Positions 31,272 to 64,000 of a stretch of DNA of 64,000 nt are shown here, piece after piece. The DNA comes from Coriobacteriia bacterium (GTDB lineage: Bacteria > Actinomycetota > Coriobacteriia > Anaerosomatales > Anaerosomataceae): contig JAUSBK010000009.1 in the NCBI GenBank assembly GCA_030652115.1, forward strand, positions 1 to 64,000, given 5' to 3'. The notes under the pieces were generated by a model that worked only from the letters and a program-made list of their open reading frames with translations, had not been told where the DNA came from and did no database searches. The position numbers and the translations under genes are program-made. Within the stretch, counting starts at the first letter, position 1; each line of letters begins with the position of its first letter.

Positions 31272-31401
31272 AGTGAGCCCCCTGCTCGCGTGCGGGTCGG
31301 CCGACCGCCCCAGTCCCGGCTATGGTACCAGCACCGGGGCCCCGGCGTGAACGCTCGGGCCATCCACGTAGCGCAACCGGCCGCGTCACCGCTTGCGCTC
31401 C

Positions 31402-31417
31402 ATACCCTATGGGGTAT
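31402..31417 (+). promoter_or_regulatory. CsoR/CstR-type operator in the ferredoxin-selenoprotein promoter
   Basis: ATACCC-TATG-GGGTAT is an inverted repeat of the kind bound by CsoR-family repressors (copper CsoR, persulfide CstR), which favour a TACCCC...GGGGTA core. It lies between a possible -35 TTGCGC (31393) and -10 TATACG (31415), where a repressor would block polymerase. No CsoR gene is in the window. Confidence 0.5.
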
Positions 31418-31457
31418 ACGATGCGCGTGTTAGCCGATGCGTGGAAGGACTCGAAAC

Positions 31458-31661
31458 GTGCGTACCGTGACCATCGATATCTCTGCCTGCGACCGCTCCC
31501 CCATGTGTCCCGCTCGCCGTGCGTGCCCAAGAGGCGCTATCGTACCGGTATCCGGCGGGTTCTTTCCGGGCTCGCAGGGTTACATGATCGACGAAGAGCG
31601 CTGCACCGGCTGTGCAGTGTGTGCGCTCAGTTGCCCTGGCGGTGCAGTGCGTGTTGGATAG
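31458..31661 (+). CDS. Small iron-sulfur ferredoxin-like protein
   Basis: 67 residues. The C-terminal half holds a full [4Fe-4S] motif CTGCAVCALSCP. The N-terminal half has three further Cys in an odd spacing, C-x5-C-x5-CP (ACDRSPMCPARRACP), one short of a second standard cluster. GTG 31458 has GGAAGGA 8 bases upstream. It lies 10 bases before the candidate selenoprotein and is probably its electron partner, both under the operator at 31402. Confidence 0.8.
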   Translation: MRTVTIDISACDRSPMCPARRACPRGAIVPVSGGFFPGSQGYMIDEERCTGCAVCALSCPGGAVRVG

Positions 31662-31671
31662 GAGAAACACC

Positions 31672-32004
31672 ATGACCGAGCCCAAGGTCAACGTAGAGGT
31701 CTTTGACTACCCCGCCGAGACCACCTGCTGGAGCGGCGGTTGAGGCCCCTCCTGGTCTCCGGAGGAGATCACCGCGATCATCCGCTCCGAGGTCGAGCAC
31801 CGCTTCGGCGACAGCGCGAGCATCGTCTATCACGACACGAGCCGACCAGAGGTCCTTGCAGCACACCAGGCCATGGTGCAACTCATCCAGGACCAGGGTC
31901 TGGTCTACCCGGTGACGGTCGTTGACGGAGAGCCCATGTACGATGGAGCCGTCTCGTACCCGGCGATCCTGCGGGCCGTCCAGACGCGTCTGAGCGCGTC
32001 CTGA
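31672..32004 (+). CDS. Candidate selenocysteine-containing thioredoxin-like protein (in-frame TGA as Sec24)
   Basis: Reading from ATG 31672 (AGGAG 7 bases upstream) gives 110 residues if the TGA at 31741-31743 is read as selenocysteine. The redox motif is then C19-W-S-G-G-U24-G-P. The 86 codons after the TGA stay open with the same GC-rich codon use and end in a thioredoxin-like strand-helix-strand pattern (GLVYPVTVVDGEPMYDGAV), with the Pro before the strand as in thioredoxin folds. A bSECIS-like hairpin follows the TGA. The overall pattern resembles the YuzD/DUF1462 group, a tentative match. A nonsense mutation or sequencing error is the alternative. Confidence 0.72.
31741..31771 (+). promoter_or_regulatory. 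bSECIS-like hairpin after the in-frame TGA
   Basis: From 31753 to 31771 the mRNA can form an 8-base-pair stem (31753-31760 with 31764-31771, one G-U pair) closed by a GGA loop. The loop begins 18 bases after the TGA. Bacterial SECIS elements are described as a short hairpin about 16-37 bases downstream with a G in the first two loop positions; this one fits. Confidence 0.55.
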
Positions 32005-48926: not shown

Positions 48927-49180
48927 CGCCTCCGGGACACGCGGTCCCGCATCTCCACCTCGCCGCCGGGCTCAAGCCCCGAAGCCTTGAGCGCTTCGAG
49001 CGCACTCGCGCGCTCGGCGATCGGAACGCGCACGGCGAATCCGCAGAGCGAACCGAGGGCGCGCGGCGTGGGGATGAGCACCACATCGACCTCGGCTGCG
49101 ATCAGCACTTCCTCGGCACGGATCGCTTCGTGAGTGCCCTCGAAGCCGAAGACGGCGAACGCCTCCCGCTCCGCGCTCAT
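48923..49180 (-). CDS. DUF3343 protein (putative Se/S carrier)
   Basis: 85 residues. The N-terminal FAVFGFEGTHEAIRAEEVL and the Cys in RALGSLCGFAVRVP match the DUF3343 pattern, a family named a putative selenium/sulfur carrier because of its gene context. It overlaps by 4 bases the EF2568-type desulfurase gene that would supply it, and forms the tail of the Mo/W operon. The carrier role is from family naming, not shown here. Confidence 0.85.
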   Translation of the reverse strand: MSAEREAFAVFGFEGTHEAIRAEEVLIAAEVDVVLIPTPRALGSLCGFAVRVPIAERASALEALKASGLEPGGEVEMRDRVSRRR

Positions 49181-50331
49181 CGGCAGAGTTCCCGCATGGC
49201 GGCCACAGCGACGTCCACGTCCTCGTCGGTAAGGTTCCAGCCGACGCTGAAGCGCAGCGCGCCCGAGTCGCTCGTGCCGACGGCCTCGTGCGTCCAGGGC
49301 GTGCAGTGCAAACCGGCGCGAACGGCGATCCCCCAGCGACGGTCGAGCGCGAATGCCATCTCGTCGGGAGCGAGCTTCTCGTGGACGACGCTCACCACGG
49401 GCACGCGTTCCTCGGCGATCGGCGGTCCGAGCACGGTGACCCCGGGGATGTCGCTCAGGCCGTGGTACAGCCGCCGGGTGAGCTCACGCTCGCGCGATCG
49501 GATCTCTACGGCGTTCGCCGCGAGATAGTCGGCAGCGGCACCCAGGCCGGCGGCGGCGATGACGTTGCCCGTCCCCGCCTCGTACCGATCGGGACGGACG
49601 CGCGGCTGCTCGATCTCCTCCGAGCGCCCGCCGCTTCCTCCCTGCACCAGCTCCCTGGGATCGAAACCGGGCGCGAGGTACAGCACGCCGATCCCCTGTG
49701 GGCCGAGCAGACCCTTGTGGCCCGGCGCGACGTAGGCGTCTGCGCCGAGCACGCCGAGCGCGAGCGGAAGGTGCCCTGCCGCCTGAGCGCCGTCCACCAC
49801 GACGATCGCGCCGTGCTCGTGCGCGATGTCCACGATGTCGCCGATCGGCTGGATGGCACCGGTCAGGTTGGAGGCATGCTGACAGACGACCATCCGCGTG
49901 GGCGCGGCAGCGACAGCGCGTTCGATGTCGTCCAGATCGATCCGACCCTGCGCGTCGACAGGCACTCGCGCTACCTTGACCCCGGATGTTGCGAGAAATG
50001 CGAGCGGACGCGCGACCGCGTTGTGCTCCACGGACGACACGACCACCCGGTCGCCCCGCTTGAGCGTTCCTTTGAGCACGAGATTGAGCCCGTACGTGCA
50101 TCCAGGAACAAAGGCCAGGTCCCGTGGATCGGCGATGCCGATGAAGGCCGCCACCTGCGTCCGGGCGTGCTCCACTGCGCGAGCCGCGGCGAGCGCCAGC
50201 GAATGCGCGCTACGGCCGGGATTGCCGCCCGCGACGTCCATCGCGCCCATCATCGCCTCGGCCACCACAGGCGGCTTCGGCCACGACGTGGCGGCATGGT
50301 CGAAGTAGCGGATGCGGGGCGTGTCGGTCAT
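49177..50331 (-). CDS. Cysteine desulfurase family protein (EF2568 type, class V aminotransferase)
   Basis: 384 residues. The PLP Lys lies in YVAPGHKGLLGPQGIG, the PLP-binding Asp in IVVVDGAQAAGHLPL, and a conserved Cys in RAGLHCTPWTHEAVG near the C-terminus could carry persulfide or selenide. This subfamily occurs beside DUF3343 and selenium-linked molybdenum hydroxylase genes in other bacteria. It probably frees S or Se from Cys/Sec for a cofactor. The opening motif is IRYFDHAATSWPKPP. Confidence 0.9.
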   Translation of the reverse strand: MTDTPRIRYFDHAATSWPKPPVVAEAMMGAMDVAGGNPGRSAHSLALAAARAVEHARTQVAAFIGIADPRDLAFVPGCTYGLNLVLKGTLKRGDRVVVSSVEHNAVARPLAFLATSGVKVARVPVDAQGRIDLDDIERAVAAAPTRMVVCQHASNLTGAIQPIGDIVDIAHEHGAIVVVDGAQAAGHLPLALGVLGADAYVAPGHKGLLGPQGIGVLYLAPGFDPRELVQGGSGGRSEEIEQPRVRPDRYEAGTGNVIAAAGLGAAADYLAANAVEIRSRERELTRRLYHGLSDIPGVTVLGPPIAEERVPVVSVVHEKLAPDEMAFALDRRWGIAVRAGLHCTPWTHEAVGTSDSGALRFSVGWNLTDEDVDVAVAAMRELCR

Positions 50332-50334
50332 CGG

Positions 50335-50814
50335 TTAGCCGTGCCCCCCGCCGGCAATCATCTCGACCGCGTGCTCGAGTTGATCGGCGACGATGCCGAA
50401 GCTCTCGCGCGCACCCTTCTCGCTGCCCGGCAGGTTGACGATGAGCGTGCGGCCCCGCTGCGCCGCGACCGCCCGTGAAAGCATCGCCCGCCTGGTGATG
50501 GCGAGGCTCATCGAGCGGATCGCCTCGGCGATACCGGGCACCTCGCGGTCGGCGATCGCGAGCGTCGCCTCCGGGCACTGGTCGCGAGGCGAGAGGCCGG
50601 TGCCGCCGGTGGTGAGCACCACGTCGCAGCGGTCCTCGTCGGCCATCCGCACCAGCGCCGAGGAGATGGCGTCGGCGTCGTCCGGGACGATCGCGTAGGC
50701 GGCCGTCTCCCAGCCGCGCTCCTCACTCAGCGCGCGCAGCGCCGCGCCCGAGGTGTCGTTCTCCTCGGTTCGCGTGTCCGAGCACGTGAGTACTCCGATC
50801 CTGAGCACAGCCAT
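50335..50814 (-). CDS. mogA: Molybdopterin adenylyltransferase (MogA/MoaB family)
   Basis: 159 residues. Family motifs are GVLTCSDTRT, VVLTTGGTGLSPRDQCPEAT and IVNLPGSEKGA. It adenylates molybdopterin before metal insertion by MoeA. MogA and MoaB cannot be separated by eye. It lies 1 base from the MOSC gene. Confidence 0.92.
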   Translation of the reverse strand: MAVLRIGVLTCSDTRTEENDTSGAALRALSEERGWETAAYAIVPDDADAISSALVRMADEDRCDVVLTTGGTGLSPRDQCPEATLAIADREVPGIAEAIRSMSLAITRRAMLSRAVAAQRGRTLIVNLPGSEKGARESFGIVADQLEHAVEMIAGGGHG

Positions 50815-50815
50815 C

Positions 50816-51256
50816 TTAGGAAGCCGCCTCCACCACGATCTCGTCGCCGACGTTCACCGGGCCACCTTCGACAACGACGGCGAAGATTCCTTCCTTCGGC
50901 ATGACGCAGTCGCCGGCCTGGTAGTAGATCGCGCACTTGGTGTGACACTCCTTGCCGATCTGGGTGACCTCGAGGAGTGTGGCGCCCACGCGCAGGCGCG
51001 TGCCCACGGGCAGCGAGACCAAGTCGATGCCGCTCGTGGTGATGTTCTCGGCAAAATCGCCGGCATCCACGTCCAGTCCCTTGGCCTGCATCTTGGCGAT
51101 GGACTCCTCGGCCAGAAGGCTTACCTGCCGATGCCAGTCGCCTGCGTGCGCATCGCCGTCGAAGCCGCGATTCTCGATGAGCGTGCCGGCCGCGCCAGGC
51201 GTCTTGCGCACCGTCTTCTTCGCGGAGAGGTTGACCGAAGTCACCGTCGCTGCCAT
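50816..51256 (-). CDS. MOSC domain protein
   Basis: 146 residues, a stand-alone MOSC domain. ENRGFDGDAHAGDWHRQVSL and GKECHTKCAIYYQAGDCVMP include the conserved Cys (HTKC) proposed to carry sulfur to metal centres. Its place between mogA and moaC supports a role in maturing the molybdenum cofactor. ATG 51256. Confidence 0.92.
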   Translation of the reverse strand: MAATVTSVNLSAKKTVRKTPGAAGTLIENRGFDGDAHAGDWHRQVSLLAEESIAKMQAKGLDVDAGDFAENITTSGIDLVSLPVGTRLRVGATLLEVTQIGKECHTKCAIYYQAGDCVMPKEGIFAVVVEGGPVNVGDEIVVEAAS

Positions 51257-51258
51257 TG

Positions 51259-51768
51259 CTAGTCCTCCTTGGGGGTCTTGCGCGGGACGTCTTGCCGTTC
51301 CCAGGTGCCCGAAGCGCCGCCGGTCTTCTCGAGCAGGCGCACCGAGGTGATCTCCATGCCGCGGTCGACCGCCTTGCACATGTCGTAGAGCGCGAGCGCG
51401 GCCACCGACGCAGCCGTGAGCGCCTCCATCTCGATACCCGTCTTGCCGTCGGTCTCGACCACGGCGGTGATACGCACCGCGGAATCGCACGGCTCGAGCT
51501 CCACGCTTGCGTGCGTGATCGGCAGCGGGTGGCACAGCGGGATCAGATCGCTCGTGCGCTTCGCGGCCTGGATGCCGGCGATGCGCGCCACGGCGAAGAC
51601 GTCGCCCTTCGGCGCCCGGCCCTCGACGATCATCGCGAGCGTTTCGGGCTGCATGCGGATGAGCGCTTCGGCCACCGCGCGCCGGTGCGTGACCGGCTTG
51701 TCGGCCACATCGACCATGTGTGCGGCACCGTGCTCGTCAAGGTGCGTGAGGTGCGAGCCGTCCTTCAT
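51259..51768 (-). CDS. moaC: Cyclic pyranopterin monophosphate synthase MoaC
   Basis: 169 residues. The motifs [33 protein letters not shown] and the [20 protein letters not shown] helix with KAVDRGMEI hold the active-site Lys, His and Asp. It completes cPMP formation with MoaA, whose gene ends 1 base before. Confidence 0.96.
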
Positions 51769-51769
51769 G

Positions 51770-52792
51770 TCAGCCTCCGATCTGCGACATGCGTCGCACC
51801 GTGCCGAGCTGCATGTGATGCCCCTCGGGCTTGGCCGCCAGCGCTTGCTGGATGATGTCCCGCACGTCGGCATCCGTCCCCGCGCGCAGGACGCCGCGGA
51901 CATCGATCTCCTCGTCGGAGAAGAGGCACGTCCGCAGCTTGCCGTCCGCGGTCAGACGTAGCCGGTTGCACTCGCCACAGAAGTGATGCGAGAGCGGCGA
52001 GATCACGCCGATCGTGCCGAGCGCCCCGGGGAACTGGTAGTAGCGCGCGGGACCCCAGCCGCCGGGCGCGTCATCGCGCGCCACCGCCGTGAGCTCGCCC
52101 AGCCCCGCGGCTGCCCCGTCGGCGGCGATGCGCTCGAGGATCTCATCTGTCGAGACGTGGTCACCCTCGCTCCATCCGTCCGCCTCGGCGCTCGTGCACG
52201 AATGCTCGCCCACGTCGCCGACCGGCATGTATTCGATGAAGCGCACGTGCAGCGGACGATCGAAGGTCATGCCCGCGAAGCCGACGAGATTCTGGTCGAG
52301 CGAGCGCACGACCACCACGTTCAGCTTGACCGGATCCATACCCACCTCGAACGCCGCTCCGAGCCCGTCGAGCACGTCGGCGAGGTTCCCGCCTCGCGTG
52401 ACCCGCTTGTAGACCTCGGGGTCGAGGGTGTCGAGAGAGATGTTGATGCGCTTGAGGCCTGCTTCGGCCAGGTCGGCCGCATACCGCCGAAGAAGCGTGG
52501 CGTTGGTGGTGAGCGCGATCGCCTCGATCCCGGTGGTCTCGCGCAGGCGGCGCACGTGATCCACGATGCCACGCCGCACGAGCGGCTCGCCGCCGGTGAG
52601 GCGGATCTTGCTGATGCCCTCACTTGCAGCGACCGCCGCGAATCGCTCGATCTCCTCGAAGGAGAGGACCTCCTCGTGCCCTTTCCACTCCACGCCGTCG
52701 GGCGGCATGCAGTAGACGCACCGCAGGTTGCAGCGGTCTGTGACGCTGATGCGCAGGTAGTCGATCCGTCGGCCGAACGCGTCAGTCGCCAT
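51770..52792 (-). CDS. moaA: GTP 3',8-cyclase MoaA (radical SAM)
   Basis: 340 residues. The N-terminal radical-SAM cluster is CNLRCVYC, the C-terminal second [4Fe-4S] motif is CGECNRLRL...C, and the protein ends in the Gly-Gly that acts in catalysis (SQIGG). An in-frame insertion of about 10 residues between the clusters ([16 protein letters not shown]) is slightly unusual. It overlaps mobB by 11 bases. Confidence 0.96.
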
Positions 52793-53306
52793 GGGGGCTG
52801 CCCTTCAGGAACGTCGCTTCCACCAAGTCGGCCAGCCCCTCGGCATCGTCCAGACCGAAGACCGGCACCTCCCCCAGATCGATCTCATCGTTGTCGGTGA
52901 CGAGCGCGAACAGCTCGGCCGCTTCGCACACGAGCTCGGTCGAGCGGGCGCGCCGCGATACCTCGATGCGCACGTTGCCCGCGCGGCGGTAGCCCTCCGT
53001 GAGCAGGATGTGCACGTCGTTGGCCAGCGCGAGCAACTCATCGAGCGAGGCCTCATGATCCATCGTGCGCACCATGCCGAGCTTCGAAGGCGTGCTCACG
53101 AGCGTGACGGCTGCGCCGGCCTTCGCATGGCGCCACGAGTCCTTGCCGGGCACATCGATGTCGAAGTCGTGGACGTGATGCTTGACGCTGCCCACGCGGT
53201 AGCCGCGCGCGACGAGCGCGCGGATCAGCCGCTCCATCAAAGTCGTCTTGCCCGAATCGCTCTTGCCGACGACGGAGACGACAGGGATGCCCGCCCCGGA
53301 GGTCAC
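52782..53306 (-). CDS. mobB: Molybdopterin-guanine dinucleotide biosynthesis protein MobB
   Basis: 174 residues. Walker A GKSDSGKTTLMERLI, switch VKHHVHDFDIDVPGKDSWRH and VHILLTEGYRRAG are the MobB GTPase signature. It helps MobA attach GMP. GTG 53306 follows the TAG of the preceding small gene by 1 base; an upstream GTG at 53339 would overlap it by 30 bases. Confidence 0.9.
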   Translation of the reverse strand: MTSGAGIPVVSVVGKSDSGKTTLMERLIRALVARGYRVGSVKHHVHDFDIDVPGKDSWRHAKAGAAVTLVSTPSKLGMVRTMDHEASLDELLALANDVHILLTEGYRRAGNVRIEVSRRARSTELVCEAAELFALVTDNDEIDLGEVPVFGLDDAEGLADLVEATFLKGSPHGD

Positions 53307-53307
53307 G

Positions 53308-53529
53308 CTAGAAGCACCCGAGGTCGCAGTTGTGGACACGCACGCCGGCTGCGTCGGCAGCGGCGCCCGCGACTTTGTACGGCACTCCCTGGTCCTCGGC
53401 GAACTTCCGCAGCACGGGGCAGGTGATCTTGCCGTTCTCGTCCGCCTTGGCCTTGATGGCGTCCTTCATGTCGTCGGTCACCTGACCGGCCCACCTGGGG
53501 TCGGCGAACTTCTGGTTCTCGCTGCTCAT
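53308..53529 (-). CDS. Small conserved-looking protein ending in CDLGCF
   Basis: 73 residues, no membrane segment. A helical segment GKITCPVLRKFAEDQGVPYK precedes AGAAADAAGVRV and the terminal HNCDLGCF. Three Cys (one after the first third, two in the C-terminal C-x3-C) suggest metal or sulfur handling, and the helix pair looks like a small helix-turn-helix. I recall similar short proteins ending in a Cys-x-Leu-Gly-Cys-Phe tail near Mo-cofactor genes, but cannot name a family. It sits between moeA and mobB, overlapping moeA by 4 bases. Confidence 0.8.
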   Translation of the reverse strand: MSSENQKFADPRWAGQVTDDMKDAIKAKADENGKITCPVLRKFAEDQGVPYKVAGAAADAAGVRVHNCDLGCF

Positions 53530-54767
53530 GCCGTACCTTCTTCCATGTCGAGTCGGATGCACATCACCGACGTGCCGGCGGGGACGAACGACTCCCCCTC
53601 CGGCAGCGATATCAGGCAGTTGCCGCGATGCATCGCTGTCAGCAGCGCCGAGGACTGGTTGCCCGAGACTGCGGCCGAGTAGCTCCCGTCGCCGCTTGCG
53701 GTGAGTCGTCCGCGCAGGAAGTACCGCCGGTCCGCCTTCTTCTTCACGTCGTGCGTGAGCGTCGCCACCGCACGCGGCCGTGCGAGCGACGTGTAGCCGG
53801 CCATCTTGCGGATGGTCGGGCGAACGAACATCTCGAACCCGACCATCGTCGAGGTGGGGTTGCCCGGCAGGCCGAAAAACGGCGTCCCGTCGATCGTGCC
53901 GAAGGTCTGCGGCGCGCCCGGGCGCATGGCGACCCGCCAGAAGTCGAGCTCGCCGATCTCCTCGAGAACCTTCTTCACTACGTCGAAGTCGCCCATCGAG
54001 ACACCGCCGGTGGTGACCATCAGGTCGAACTCGGACGCCCGCGAAAGCAGCGCCCGGGTGTCGTCCTCGTTGTCGCGCGCCACGCCAAGGACGTGCGGCT
54101 CCCCGCCTGCCTGAAGCACCTGCGCGGCGAGCGAGTGCGAGTTGGAGTTGCGGATCTTCCCCGGCCCCGGCTTCTCGGTGACCTCCACGAGTTCGTCCCC
54201 GGTGGAGACGATGGCGACCCGGGGACGGCGCCGCACCATGAGCTGGTCGTGCCCCACCGATGCCGCCAGCCCGATCGCCGCTGGACCGATAAGCTCGCCG
54301 CTCAGGAGAACGGTCTCACCGGCGCGGACCTCCTCGCCGCGGCCCCGGATGTTCTCGCCGGGTTTGGCCGTCGCGAGGATCTCAACCGTCCCGCCGGCAC
54401 CGCCGGCGTTCTCTCCCACCCGCGTGAGCTCCACCTTCACGACCGCGTCGGCTCCTGTCGGCACAGGAGCACCCGTCATGATGCGTGCGGCCTGCCCCGG
54501 ACCCACGGACCGTTCTGGCGCCACACCCGCCGGGATGTGCTCGATCACGTCGAGCTTCACCGGGGTGTCGTCGCTCGCGCCTGCGATGTCGGCATAGCGA
54601 AGCGCATAGCCGTCCATCGCCGAGTTGTCGAAGGGCGCGACGTCGATGTCCGAGATCACGTCTTCGGCGAGCACGCGTCCAAGGGACTCGAGGAGCGATA
54701 CCCGCTCCGGCTCGAGAACCGGGATGCGCGACAGAACCTGCGCGGTCGCCTCTTCGACGGTGATCAC
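53526..54767 (-). CDS. moeA: Molybdopterin molybdenumtransferase MoeA
   Basis: 413 residues. Motifs are APFDNSAMDGYALR at the N-terminal active site, TGAPVPTGADAVVKVE, STGDELVE, and VTTGGVSMGDFD with GLPGNPTSTMVGFE near the C-terminus. It inserts molybdate (or tungstate) into adenylated molybdopterin. Start GTG 54767 has GGAGG 7 bases upstream and overlaps the MobA-FdhD stop by 4 bases; a longer reading to 55010 is a shadow of that gene. Confidence 0.95.
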   Translation of the reverse strand: MITVEEATAQVLSRIPVLEPERVSLLESLGRVLAEDVISDIDVAPFDNSAMDGYALRYADIAGASDDTPVKLDVIEHIPAGVAPERSVGPGQAARIMTGAPVPTGADAVVKVELTRVGENAGGAGGTVEILATAKPGENIRGRGEEVRAGETVLLSGELIGPAAIGLAASVGHDQLMVRRRPRVAIVSTGDELVEVTEKPGPGKIRNSNSHSLAAQVLQAGGEPHVLGVARDNEDDTRALLSRASEFDLMVTTGGVSMGDFDVVKKVLEEIGELDFWRVAMRPGAPQTFGTIDGTPFFGLPGNPTSTMVGFEMFVRPTIRKMAGYTSLARPRAVATLTHDVKKKADRRYFLRGRLTASGDGSYSAAVSGNQSSALLTAMHRGNCLISLPEGESFVPAGTSVMCIRLDMEEGTA

Positions 54768-56170
54768 GAGTGTGCCTCCTCGCTCGGGATGATGCGCTGC
54801 GGGTTCGTGTAGACGACCAGTTTTCCGCCGCGGGCGTACCCCACGAGCGTGATAGCGGCGCGCTCGGCGACCTCGGCGGCCAGATCGGTGACCGCCGTGC
54901 GTGACGCAACCACCGGGACGCGCGCCTTGGCGGCCTTCACGGCCATCTCGTAGCTGATGCGGCCGGTGGTGAGCAGGAGCCCGTCTTGGGTGGGGGTGCC
55001 GTCGAGCCACGCGCGGCCGAACAGCTTGTCGAGCGCATTGTGCCGGCCCACGTCCTCACGCATGAGCACGAGCTCGCCGTTCACGCCGAGACCGCAGGAG
55101 TGGACGCCGCCCGTGTCGCGGTACGCCGCCGCCGCACGGGCGAGCTGGCCCATGAGGTCGTAGATCACATCCGGCGACACGGTGGCCGAGGAAACGACGG
55201 GCTCCACGCCACGCGCGTGCCCGACCGACGCGAAGGTCACGCCCTTGCCGCACCCGGAGGTCACGTAGCGCTTGCGCTCGGCCACGTCGGCTGGCGCTTC
55301 CTCGCGACTGCGTACGTACACGAGTCCGCGCTTGTGGTCGATGTCGACACTCTCGAGCGCGTCGCGATCGGTGAGGAATCCTTCGGAGACCAGGAAGCCG
55401 ATGCCCAGGTCGTCGAGATCCTCGGGCGTGCTTTGCATCGTGGCGATCTCGTCGTCATTGAGGAAGATCGTGATCGGCCGCTCGGAAGGCATCCCGCGCT
55501 GTCGGCGCGCGCCCACCTCGATCACCGAGACGCGCGGAGCGGCTGTGGATACGTCGCTCGCGGCCTCATCGCGCACCTCGAGGAGCTCCTCGGGGGTGTT
55601 GACGTTCACAAGACTGCGCAGCCCAGGATCCACCCGGCGCAGGGTGTCGAGCGACACCTCGACGGTCTTGACCTTGGGCAGGATCGCGACCAGCCGGCGC
55701 CGACCCGACTCAAGAACGCGCCGCGCCTCCGGCAGGCAGCTTGTGTGGTAGAGCGCGAGCAGCGGCTCGGGGCCCTTCTCGGAGGTGGGAAGCACGACTT
55801 GCGCGCCGTCGCGCGCGTCCCACAGCGCGCGAATGACCGAAGGCTCGAGCCACGGCATGTCGGCTGCGAGTGCGAGCACCCACTCGTCCTCCGACCGCGT
55901 GAGCGCGGTGACCAGGCCCCCGAGGGGTCCTTGGTAGGCGACCTCGTCGGCGAAGACGGCTACGTTGGCCGGCAGGCCGGCCTCAGCGATGGCCTCGGGG
56001 CGGTTCGTCACGACGATCACGTGGGCGCACACCTGCGCGGCGATGTCCGCGACGCGCGCCACCAGCGACTCACCGTCGAACTGCAGCAGCGTCTTATCGA
56101 CGCCCATCCGCTGCGAGCGGCCGCCCGCCAACACCGCGGCGGTCACCGGTATGTGTGTGGTGTCGTTCAC
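54764..56170 (-). CDS. MobA-FdhD fusion: Mo-cofactor guanylyltransferase joined to formate dehydrogenase sulfurtransferase
   Basis: 468 residues. Residues 1-205 are MobA (VLAGGRSQRMGVDKTLL; VLALAADMPWLEP; LVNVNTPEEL), which adds GMP to the cofactor. Residues 210-468 are FdhD (FLNDDEIATMQSTPEDLDDL; SEGFLTD; MREDVGRHNALDKLFG; TTGRISYEM), which carries sulfur from a desulfurase to formate dehydrogenase. The FdhD Cys loop reads TSGCGKG: one Cys where some homologues have C-x2-C. A single reading frame joins both, so the fusion is real and not a miscalled stop. Confidence 0.93.
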   Translation of the reverse strand: MNDTTHIPVTAAVLAGGRSQRMGVDKTLLQFDGESLVARVADIAAQVCAHVIVVTNRPEAIAEAGLPANVAVFADEVAYQGPLGGLVTALTRSEDEWVLALAADMPWLEPSVIRALWDARDGAQVVLPTSEKGPEPLLALYHTSCLPEARRVLESGRRRLVAILPKVKTVEVSLDTLRRVDPGLRSLVNVNTPEELLEVRDEAASDVSTAAPRVSVIEVGARRQRGMPSERPITIFLNDDEIATMQSTPEDLDDLGIGFLVSEGFLTDRDALESVDIDHKRGLVYVRSREEAPADVAERKRYVTSGCGKGVTFASVGHARGVEPVVSSATVSPDVIYDLMGQLARAAAAYRDTGGVHSCGLGVNGELVLMREDVGRHNALDKLFGRAWLDGTPTQDGLLLTTGRISYEMAVKAAKARVPVVASRTAVTDLAAEVAERAAITLVGYARGGKLVVYTNPQRIIPSEEAHS

Positions 56171-56231
56171 TCAACCTCCATCGCGAGTGCCGGCCCGCGA
56201 GCCCGAGCACGAGCGTCGGGCAACTCTCGTA

Positions 56232-57362
56232 TCATACCCCGCCGGGTACGTCGTGGGCAGGTGCCACGCGCACGGCGGTCGCCTTGAACAGGGCGATCGT
56301 GTTCGCGCCATGCTCGAGCCCGAGTTCCCGCGAGGATGCGCGAGAAACCGAAGCAGCAAGGCGCAGCCCGTCAGCAATCAGACTCACCCGATCGGTGCTG
56401 CCGCGATGTTCGACCGCAGCCACACGCATCACCAGCTGATTGCGTGCCGAAGACGGCGGCAGCGCCGCATCAGCTCCGAAGAGCGTGATGTCTTCGGGAC
56501 GGATGCCGAGGAGAACGTCGGATCCGGTGGGCAGATCGGTGCGGGCGAACAACACGGCGCCCTCGACCGCGATCTCGGCGATGCCCTCCTCCGTGGCCGC
56601 GATGCGCCCACGGAGCGACCCGTCCATCCCGATGAAGTCAGCGACCCACTCGTCTGTGGGAACACCCATCACGTCGTCCACGCTGCCGCTGCGCACCACG
56701 TGTCCCTCGTTCACGATGCTCACACGGTCGGCGACCACCATCGCCTCGTCCTGGTCGTGCGTGACGTACAGCGCCGTCACGCCCTCGCCCGCCAGAATCT
56801 CCGAGAAGTCACCGACGAGACGTCGCTTGATGAGCGGGTCGAGATACGACAGCGGCTCGTCGAGCAGCAGGATGCGGGGCTCGAGCACGAGCGCCCGCGC
56901 GAGAGCCACGCGCTGGGCCTCGCCGCCCGACAGTCTAAGCGCCGAGGACTTCTGCGTGCCGCCCAGCCCCACGCGCTCGAGCGCGGCCGCCACGCGTTCG
57001 GTGCGCTCGGCCTTCGAGACGCGGCGCAGCGCAAGGCCGTACTCCACGTTCTGCTCGACCGTACCCTTGAAGAGATACGGGTTCTGGAAGACGGCTGCCA
57101 TCATCATACGGGCGGGTTTGTCCCCCGCCACGACCTCGCGGCCGTCAAGGAGGATCCTGCCGGACGTTGGCTTCTCCAGAAGTCCCAGAATGCGCAGAAG
57201 CGTTGACTTGCCCGAACCCGACGGTCCGAGCACCACGTGCGACTCGCCGTCACAGAGCTCGAAGTGCCCGACGTCGAGCACGGTGCGCTTTCGGTAGCGC
57301 ATGGTGACGTTCTCCGCGGTGATGATCGGCTGGCCGCCGCAGCGCCGTTGCCTAGCGTTCAT
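56232..57362 (-). CDS. tupC: Tungstate/molybdate ABC transporter ATPase
   Basis: 376 residues. Walker A GPSGSGKSTLLRIL, signature LRLSGGEAQRVALARAL, Walker B ILLLDEPLSYLDP and His-loop YVTHDQDEA. The C-terminal 130 residues are a TOBE/oligonucleotide-binding-like regulatory region with VLLGIRPEDITLF, which in related importers binds oxyanion to stop uptake. Overlaps the permease gene by 11 bases. ATG 57362. Confidence 0.92.
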   Translation of the reverse strand: MNARQRRCGGQPIITAENVTMRYRKRTVLDVGHFELCDGESHVVLGPSGSGKSTLLRILGLLEKPTSGRILLDGREVVAGDKPARMMMAAVFQNPYLFKGTVEQNVEYGLALRRVSKAERTERVAAALERVGLGGTQKSSALRLSGGEAQRVALARALVLEPRILLLDEPLSYLDPLIKRRLVGDFSEILAGEGVTALYVTHDQDEAMVVADRVSIVNEGHVVRSGSVDDVMGVPTDEWVADFIGMDGSLRGRIAATEEGIAEIAVEGAVLFARTDLPTGSDVLLGIRPEDITLFGADAALPPSSARNQLVMRVAAVEHRGSTDRVSLIADGLRLAASVSRASSRELGLEHGANTIALFKATAVRVAPAHDVPGGV

Positions 57363-58086
57363 AGCGCCCACCCGACTGCTGGACGCGCGTGAAACCGTTC
57401 ATGATGACGAAAGCGATGCCGATCAGGATGAGTCCGAGACCGAGGGCAAGCCCGAAATGTCCCTGACCGGTCTCCAGTTGGATCGCGGTGGTCATCACGC
57501 GCGTCTGTCCCTCGATGTTGCCGCCGACCATGCTGACGGCGCCAACCTCCGAGATGATGCCGCCGAAGCCGGCCGCGATCGCCGCCATCACGCCCCACCG
57601 CGCCTCTTTGATGGTGAGCGCCGCCTCGTGAAGTCGGGACGCGCCCAGTGATCGCGCCTGCAGGCGAAGCTCCGCGGGAACAGACCCTACTGCCGCAAGC
57701 GTCACGCCGGTCACAATCGGCGTGGAGATGATGACCTGCGCCATCACCATCGCGGGCACCGTGTACAGGATCCGGGGCATGATTCCGCCGGTCAGACTGA
57801 GATAGGCATCGTACAGCGGTCCGCTTCGTGAGATGAGCATGTAGACGACGAGCCCTACCACCACCGGTGGCAGCCCCATCCCGGTGTTGACCAGTGCGAT
57901 GATCAGTCCCCGCCCCGGGAACCGGCGCGAGCCGATCACGTAGCCTGCCGGGATGGCGATCGCCATCGCAAGGAGCAGGGACACGCCAGACACGCGCAGG
58001 GAGAGCCCGATGATCTCGAACGTCCCTGCGTCTCCGCCGAAGAGCAGTCCGACCGCCTCGGCGATCGCATTCCAGAAGATCTCCAT
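57352..58086 (-). CDS. tupB: Tungstate ABC transporter permease
   Basis: 244 residues, six membrane helices. The ABC-coupling loop reads EARWGVMAAIAAGFGGIISEVGA. This short permease with the cytoplasmic EAA motif is typical of TupB. AGGGG lies 4 bases before ATG 58086. Confidence 0.92.
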   Translation of the reverse strand: MEIFWNAIAEAVGLLFGGDAGTFEIIGLSLRVSGVSLLLAMAIAIPAGYVIGSRRFPGRGLIIALVNTGMGLPPVVVGLVVYMLISRSGPLYDAYLSLTGGIMPRILYTVPAMVMAQVIISTPIVTGVTLAAVGSVPAELRLQARSLGASRLHEAALTIKEARWGVMAAIAAGFGGIISEVGAVSMVGGNIEGQTRVMTTAIQLETGQGHFGLALGLGLILIGIAFVIMNGFTRVQQSGGRYER

Positions 58087-63507: not shown

Positions 63508-64000
63508 AGGGGCACATTCACGACCACGGACCGCTTGCAGGGGCCGAGGAGATCGTCCGGATCTCGTGCATCCGCCACACCTACGAGGACGGCACCTCGG
63601 TGCATCTGTGCGGCCTCGACTTCCTCGCGCACACCGGCGCGCGCGTGGCCGTACTCGGCCCGAACGGCTCGGGCAAGACCACGATGCTCTTCCACATCCT
63701 CGGCCTGCTGAAGAGCCAGGAGGGCGAGGTGCGGGTGTTCGGCATGTCCCCCGCCGACGAGTGGACGAGCATCCGCCGACGCATCGGCGTGGTGCTGCAG
63801 AACGTGGACGAGCAGTTGCTCGCTCCCACCGTGATCGACGACGTGGCGTTCTCGCCGCGCCAGTACGGGCTGCCTGAAGGCGAGGCGCTCGACCGGGCGC
63901 ACGTGGCGCTCGGCCTGCTCGGCATCGAGCATCTTGCCGACCGGGTACCGCACAACCTCTCCGGCGGCGAGAAGCGCAAGGTCGCGCTTGCGGGCGCGCT
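63504..64000 (+). CDS. cbiO: ECF transporter ATPase CbiO, N-terminal part (cut by window edge)
   Basis: The visible 165 codons open MKGHIHDHGPLAG and include Walker A GPNGSGKTTMLFHIL, Q-loop VVLQNVDEQLL with the ECF-type DEQ pattern, and the signature NLSGGEKRKVALAGA at the very end. The Walker B and the rest are beyond the window. A His-rich opening (HIHDH) is unusual for an ATPase and may sense metal. Confidence 0.92.
   Translation, partial: MKGHIHDHGPLAGAEEIVRISCIRHTYEDGTSVHLCGLDFLAHTGARVAVLGPNGSGKTTMLFHILGLLKSQEGEVRVFGMSPADEWTSIRRRIGVVLQNVDEQLLAPTVIDDVAFSPRQYGLPEGEALDRAHVALGLLGIEHLADRVPHNLSGGEKRKVALAGA

Follow-up and report, generated by a model that had tools for sequence, protein, structure and literature searches.

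A predicted selenoprotein with a C-x4-U motif, encoded beside a ferredoxin gene and behind a CsoR-type operator in Coriobacteriia

Positions 31672 to 32004, on the forward strand of the 64,000-nucleotide stretch analysed here (the window), almost certainly hold a genuine UGA/selenocysteine gene, which, judged by sequence comparison, founds a selenoprotein family absent from the catalogues. The frame, its homologues and the predicted structure describe a product of 110 residues with a thioredoxin-like fold and the motif C19-x4-U24. The explanation that best covers the locus as a whole is a new selenocysteine gene in a ferredoxin operon, controlled by a CsoR-type switch and serving a reactive-sulfur function; we give this combined reading a slight preference over its being wrong in some part. 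All features described below lie on the forward strand unless stated otherwise.

The gene, its TGA codon and the SECIS hairpin

The frame contains a single internal TGA, codon 24 (31741-31743); the terminal codon is also TGA. Its translation reads MTEPKVNVEVFDYPAETTCWSGG-U-GPSWSPEEIT..., with the active-site motif C19-W-S-G-G-U24, and the gene is preceded by the ribosome-binding site AGGAGA (31660-31665). The initial annotation had described an open frame with one TGA at codon 24 after C-W-S-G-G, an intact ribosome site and a C-x4-U selenoprotein. Its coordinates were correct, the ribosome site is as it stated, and the selenoprotein assignment agrees with the homologues, the hairpin conservation and the fold.

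Of the 61 related genomes searched (own genome, genus, family and order, the order being apparently Anaerosomatales), 54 had a homologue; these represent 35 genera, and all 54 carry TGA at the aligned codon, far more than chance would allow. The homologue matches in the order contained no stop other than TGA, and one match had a second TGA. The codon of Cys19 (31726-31728), a putative resolving or ligand cysteine, is invariant across the order, and the pattern C-x-[SG]-G-G-U-G-P-[STA]-W-[ST]-P-E-E is almost invariant in the protein alignment of the order. TGA was also present at the Sec site in 40 named contigs (labelled Coriobacteriia, Actinomycetes, Anaerosomatales bacterium and similar, one Aeromicrobium), which overlap partially with the 54 genomes. 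When 396 Actinomycetota genomes were searched with a profile, diverged homologues came to light in 18 more genomes of other lineages, including versions such as CSGGUGPSWSLEE, CGFGUGSYGLSQAE and CRGGGUAPPLSLEE, all with TGA at the Sec site, and no close Cys form was seen. Thus the search for Cys or TGA at codon 24, proposed in the initial annotation, returned TGA in 54 of 54 genomes of the order and in 18 beyond it, and Cys in none. The sole Cys residues that align with Sec24 belong to distant proteins: Cys18 of ArsD and the second Cys of the YuzD CxxC. No homologue was detected in the viral contigs searched, and the plasmid search returned only the ArsD of Enterococcus (E 3e-3). That Sec is retained throughout the order suggests that the task is one which Cys could not perform well enough. 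Because no Cys form was found, predictors based on Cys homologues should miss the family; the authors of deep-Sep acknowledge that prediction relying on such homologues is limited (PMC12013277).

Two TGA-free matches of the phylum search were considered as Cys forms and rejected. One (L135) is a true ArsD, the other (L136) resembles YuzD and has a TGA of its own immediately beyond the edge of the match. The in-frame TGA of the latter (G108:C25) lies in SGU-RSC (UxxC), and the protein is apparently a Sec form of DUF1462. In a diverged homologue (L134, G243:C19) Trp replaces the Cys and the TGA is retained (MDMWRGGGU-RPS), leaving Sec without a partner Cys.

Downstream of the TGA is a hairpin of 8 bp with a GGA loop, UGGUCUCC-GGA-GGAGAUCA (31753-31771), whose loop starts 17 nt past the UGA. 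According to the bacterial SECIS model in the literature (PMC13188914), the upper stem has 4-16 bp and the loop 3-9 nt, including a G among its first two; the spacing is 16-37 nt and the energy -7.5 kcal/mol or lower. Folded in isolation, the hairpin (-9.3 kcal/mol, z -3.1) falls within all these limits, and the 8-bp GGA hairpin at SECIS distance noted in the initial annotation was upheld. Within its 42-nt surroundings an alternative pairing was preferred (z 0.34), therefore we base the case for the hairpin on conservation and not on single-sequence energy. Among 50 distinct sequences the hairpin codons following the Trp were nearly fixed: TCT for Ser (47/47, background 8%), CCG for Pro (49/50), GAG for Glu (47/47 and 50/50) and ATC for Ile (49/49). 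Codons flanking the hairpin showed normal synonymous variation. Between subfamilies the stem is preserved through paired changes; a C-G pair at the loop, for instance, is replaced by U-A, as is a G-C pair further down. In a covariation test of 13 distinct, hand-chosen hairpins 95% of the cells were paired as compared with at most 58% in slid controls, and 15 cells were altered on both sides as compared with 5.5 in shuffles.

Genome searches of the own assembly found no selA, no selB over the cut-off and no tRNA-Sec. The tRNA-Sec candidates (best 47.6 bits) were rejected as tRNA-Ser/Leu and other tRNAs by ARAGORN, and the selB-like matches as elongation-factor-type proteins below the cut-off. 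Among the 61 relatives selA was found in 48, selB over the cut-off in 45 and tRNA-Sec in 50. A single contig of the congener G001 carries the gene and, about 73 kb downstream, selC, selB and selA, followed by sequence corresponding to that end of own contig C3 where selD lies. The contig of the window (C9) runs collinearly with G001 up to position 63,847 of the latter, where C9 ends; C12 and the selD-yedF-bearing end of C3, both from the own assembly, match G001 from approximately 97 to 104 kb. For the G001 region of 80-97 kb, unrelated genes included, the own genome gave only short matches. Because of the position of the C9 end, the C12/C3 synteny and the missing counterpart of G001 80-97 kb, the assembly appears to lack a block of about 33 kb that starts at the C9 end and includes selC-selB-selA, as read from synteny with this one close relative. 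The selD gene was identified in the own genome (TIGR00476, 380 bits). Of the four sel genes that the initial annotation proposed to look for, selD is therefore present, whereas selA, selB and selC, whose absence it had named as a refutation, are literally absent from the assembly; a gap in the assembly is the best explanation, the genes being present in relatives.

Could the TGA be a true stop, so that the frame is a pseudogene, or else encodes a peptide of 23 residues and continues downstream only as a fossil? The missing selA, selB and tRNA-Sec would agree with this, but protein-level conservation extends past the TGA order-wide, with that stop alone in nearly all 54 genomes, and the synonymous freeze is confined to the hairpin. 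Moreover, the relatives own the Sec machinery, and its syntenic place coincides with the assembly gap. On these comparisons the true-stop reading is effectively refuted; we consider it scarcely conceivable. It is also highly improbable that a suppressor tRNA inserts Trp or Cys at the TGA. Opal tRNAs inserting Cys are known in other organisms, and the tRNA-Sec is missing from this assembly, but 50 of the 61 relatives have a standard tRNA-Sec, and selB and selA likewise, a SECIS is present, and in the own SelD the classical Sec position is encoded by TGA.

That SelD (L170, G000:C3 end) is a Sec form with the TGA in its active site (AGU-AAK), and its gene adjoins yedF. The initial annotation had pointed to DUF3343 and EF2568-type genes in the window as signs of selenium use. 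An EF2568-like aminotransferase gene is indeed present, but it is a weak argument for Sec: EF2568 and DUF3343 genes are known as markers of selenium-dependent molybdenum hydroxylases rather than of selenocysteine. The selD-yedF pair at the end of C3, with a SelD of the Sec type, is better evidence. The aminotransferase belongs to a molybdenum cofactor cluster on the reverse strand (49177-57371) with MogA/MoaA/MoaC/MoeA-like, MobA-FdhD-like and ABC-ATPase genes; these names come from their translations, and the aminotransferase alone was compared with a family.

Fold and family relationships

The AlphaFold model is thioredoxin-like (pLDDT 88, pTM 0.82), in line with the thioredoxin-like product supposed in the initial annotation. 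Its weakest part is the C-x4-U loop, where residues 21-23 have pLDDT values below 50. In the model Cys19 and Sec24 are located in the loop that leads from strand 1 into the first long helix. The best structural match was 1xg8, the YuzD/DUF1462 protein SA0798 of S. aureus (VIA Z 9.7 over 104 residues), followed by designed and natural thioredoxins and by ArsD. Foldseek also ranked 1xg8 first, with the ArsD structure 3ktb at the top as well and the ArsD structures 3mwh and 3kgk among the top fold matches. A sequence search of the PDB gave no credible match except 1xg8. The likeness to thioredoxin is one of fold only: there was no Pfam match to classical thioredoxin (PF00085), and the WCxPC motif is absent.

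In Pfam the protein scored 30.3 against DUF1462 (PF07315), above the cut-off of 25; one sister subfamily scored 21.8, below the cut-off, and the others gave no match. Sec24 falls on the second Cys of the YuzD CxxC. Unlike YuzD, the protein has C-x4-U (C-x3-U in sister groups) instead of CxxC, Sec in place of Cys, and a ferredoxin operon. Scores against ArsD remained below the cut-offs (NF033727, 19.5 vs 90; PF06953, 23.2 vs 27). Besides the shared fold, the ArsD motif CCSTGVCGPSVDPE resembles TCWSGGUGPSWSPE, and the Sec occupies the position of ArsD Cys18. However, ArsD has the vicinal pair Cys12-Cys13 where Thr18-Cys19 stands here, and the gene has no ArsA neighbour. Of the three ArsD residues Cys12, Cys13 and Cys18, the first has no counterpart here, the second has one, and the third is matched by Sec. 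Because both the ArsD Cys pair and the YuzD CxxC are absent, we place the family, on its sequence features, as a sister of YuzD and ArsD and a member of neither.

The catalogued thioredoxin-like bacterial selenoproteins (SaoT, HUIPC, Sec.1/Sec.2, SelW-like, Prx, Grx) also carry Sec in the active-site loop, but within UxxC, CxxU, CxU, UxC or TxxU motifs and not C-x4-U. The 2026 selenoprotein table (PMC13188914) lists 119 families, none of them YuzD/ArsD-like or C-x4-U, NCBIfam 20.0 gave no match except the sub-threshold ArsD, and we found no papers on CX4U/YuzD/ArsD selenoproteins in the openly accessible literature. The predicted family would add to the selenoproteins one that annotation pipelines truncate, and ArsD and YuzD, Cys proteins in the sources searched, would gain a Sec relative.

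The ferredoxin gene, the operator and its regulator

Immediately upstream lies a gene for a 2[4Fe-4S] ferredoxin (31458-31661; Pfam Fer4 families), probably starting with the GTG at 31458, although the ORF is listed from the ATG at 31437. The protein has the motifs C-x5-C-x5-CP ... CxxCxxCxxxCP, of which the first is unusual. Ferredoxin directly precedes the selenoprotein gene in 35 of 40 homologous loci, which substantiates the ferredoxin operon of the initial annotation, and is found near it in seven loci from two other Actinomycetota lineages. We regard the ferredoxin as a probable direct partner of the selenoprotein, gene adjacency by itself being no proof that it reduces the protein. The gene neighbours are the ferredoxin, a chemotaxis-type receptor and membrane proteins; there is no ars operon among them. 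The surrounding shared synteny (cytochrome, RidA-like, MCP, EamA, VanZ and PilT-like genes) resembles general gene order of the order, for which reason we left it out of the functional argument.

The palindrome ATACCC-TATG-GGGTAT (31402-31417), a putative CsoR/CstR-type operator, is located upstream of the ferredoxin gene. It overlaps a -10-like box TATACG (31415-31420; most commonly TATAAT in the aligned promoters of relatives), and a -35-like box TTGCGC occupies 31393-31398, the two boxes forming a sigma70-like promoter. A perfect ATACCC-N4-GGGTAT site was present in 39 of 41 homologous loci, its right half overlapped by the TATAAT-like box, with TTG 16-17 nt earlier; TTG was found at the -35 site in 35 of 39 aligned promoters. 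In loci L076 and L090, where the ferredoxin pattern was not found, the operator directly precedes the selenoprotein gene.

Four perfect operator sites occur in the own 2.4-Mb genome, as compared with none for the reversed control. They precede the ferredoxin-selenoprotein operon, a heliorhodopsin gene, a thioredoxin-FmdB-DUF302 operon and another DUF302 gene. The sole CsoR-family gene of the genome (C7:202905-203135) follows the thioredoxin operon and is preceded by an N5 variant of the palindrome. Its product keeps both sensor Cys residues and has Ser for the His of copper CsoR (...GKDC...IIGHSMKTC, this Ser preceding the second Cys by four residues). ScCsoR of Streptomyces coelicolor, a two-Cys sensor of sulfane sulfur, binds ATACC-n6-GGTAT (PMC7533328), a sequence that fits the site found here.

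In six other genomes 3-7 operator sites were found per genome and none in the control. The genes that follow encode thioredoxin, rhodanese-thioredoxin fusions, CcdA, TlpA, DUF302, TusD/DsrE, ACR3/SBF permeases and Fe-S/cytochrome b pairs. The rhodanese-thioredoxin fusions and TlpA contain in-frame TGA codons (WU-PTC and similar). The set resembles CstR/ScCsoR regulons in having a two-Cys regulator without the copper His, in the operator, and in the presence of rhodanese, TusD/DsrE and thioredoxin among the controlled genes. It differs from them in including selenoproteins, ferredoxin and heliorhodopsin, and in the lack of SQR or persulfide dioxygenase among the sites examined.

Membrane-anchored rhodanese-thioredoxin fusions with TGA (FFTDWU-PTC and similar) follow perfect ATACCCN4GGGTAT sites at L200:3576 (G006), L197 (G012) and L202, on the minus strand (G056). 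By its sequence this fusion is likely to be a second selenoprotein under the operator. At L208:15171 (G103:C11) a TlpA-like gene reading ASWU-PTC through TGA, then CcdA, follows the same operator type.

Possible function

We propose, at even chances, that the protein functions in the reduction or trafficking of reactive sulfur species. The two-Cys CsoR/CstR-like repressor (C7:202905-203135) would leave the operator when sulfane sulfur (persulfide, polysulfide) rises or under similar thiol-reactive stress. The ferredoxin would supply low-potential electrons. The Sec selenolate would attack an S-S or S-X bond of the substrate, Cys19 would resolve the intermediate as a Se-S bond, and this bond would be re-reduced by the ferredoxin, with the net result that reactive sulfur species are reduced or trafficked. 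Regulator binding to the operator, the sulfane-sulfur signal, electron donation by ferredoxin and the sulfur chemistry of Sec24/Cys19 are steps that we infer. Against the sulfur reading, copper CsoR proteins share very similar operators, and the heliorhodopsin and ACR3/SBF-type permeases encoded after the operator would suit oxidative or metalloid stress equally.

The protein might instead be a Sec-bearing metallochaperone of the ArsD type, whose Cys19 and Sec24 bind As(III), Sb(III), Hg(II) or Cu(I) and pass it on to an efflux pump or reductase. Sec24 aligns with ArsD Cys18, within similar motifs, and Cys18 belongs with Cys12 and Cys13 to the As(III)-binding site of ArsD as cited in PMC4562236. 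ArsD structures among the top fold matches, ACR3-like permease genes after the operator in two relatives and the CsoR-family regulation point in the same direction. We nevertheless think a metallochaperone rather unlikely: the Cys12-Cys13 pair is replaced by Thr18-Cys19 and the ArsD cut-offs are missed, no ArsA or ars gene adjoins, the regular neighbour encodes a ferredoxin, for which a chaperone has no need, and most genes after the operator concern disulfide or sulfane-sulfur handling. A further candidate is a ferredoxin-dependent Sec thioredoxin or peroxidase for general thiol-disulfide or peroxide stress, which would repair oxidised thiols in an anaerobe exposed to oxygen or light. Such a role would suit the thioredoxin-like fold and the thioredoxin and heliorhodopsin genes behind the same operator in the own genome, heliorhodopsin having been connected with photo-oxidative stress (PMC8612252). 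It is unlikely as well, because the motif is neither CxxC/UxxC nor the peroxiredoxin TxxU, and the rhodanese and TusD/DsrE of the wider regulon indicate sulfur.

Extending the reactive-sulfur reading, we tentatively suggest, as a possibility held with less than even confidence, a selenoprotein-centred sulfane-sulfur regulon in anaerobic Actinomycetota. In such a regulon a CstR-like repressor would govern the obligately Sec-containing YuzD/ArsD-like protein with its ferredoxin and the UPxC rhodanese-thioredoxin and TlpA selenoproteins, and the protein with C-x4-U would act as a novel kind of polysulfide/persulfide reductase that depends on ferredoxin. Through the common operator further genes can be listed, and a role in sulfur stress can be tested directly.

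The heliorhodopsin gene of the own genome (PF18761, E 3e-95; G000:C1:46248, L145:5249) starts directly after a perfect operator, which may offer a clue to the physiology of heliorhodopsin.
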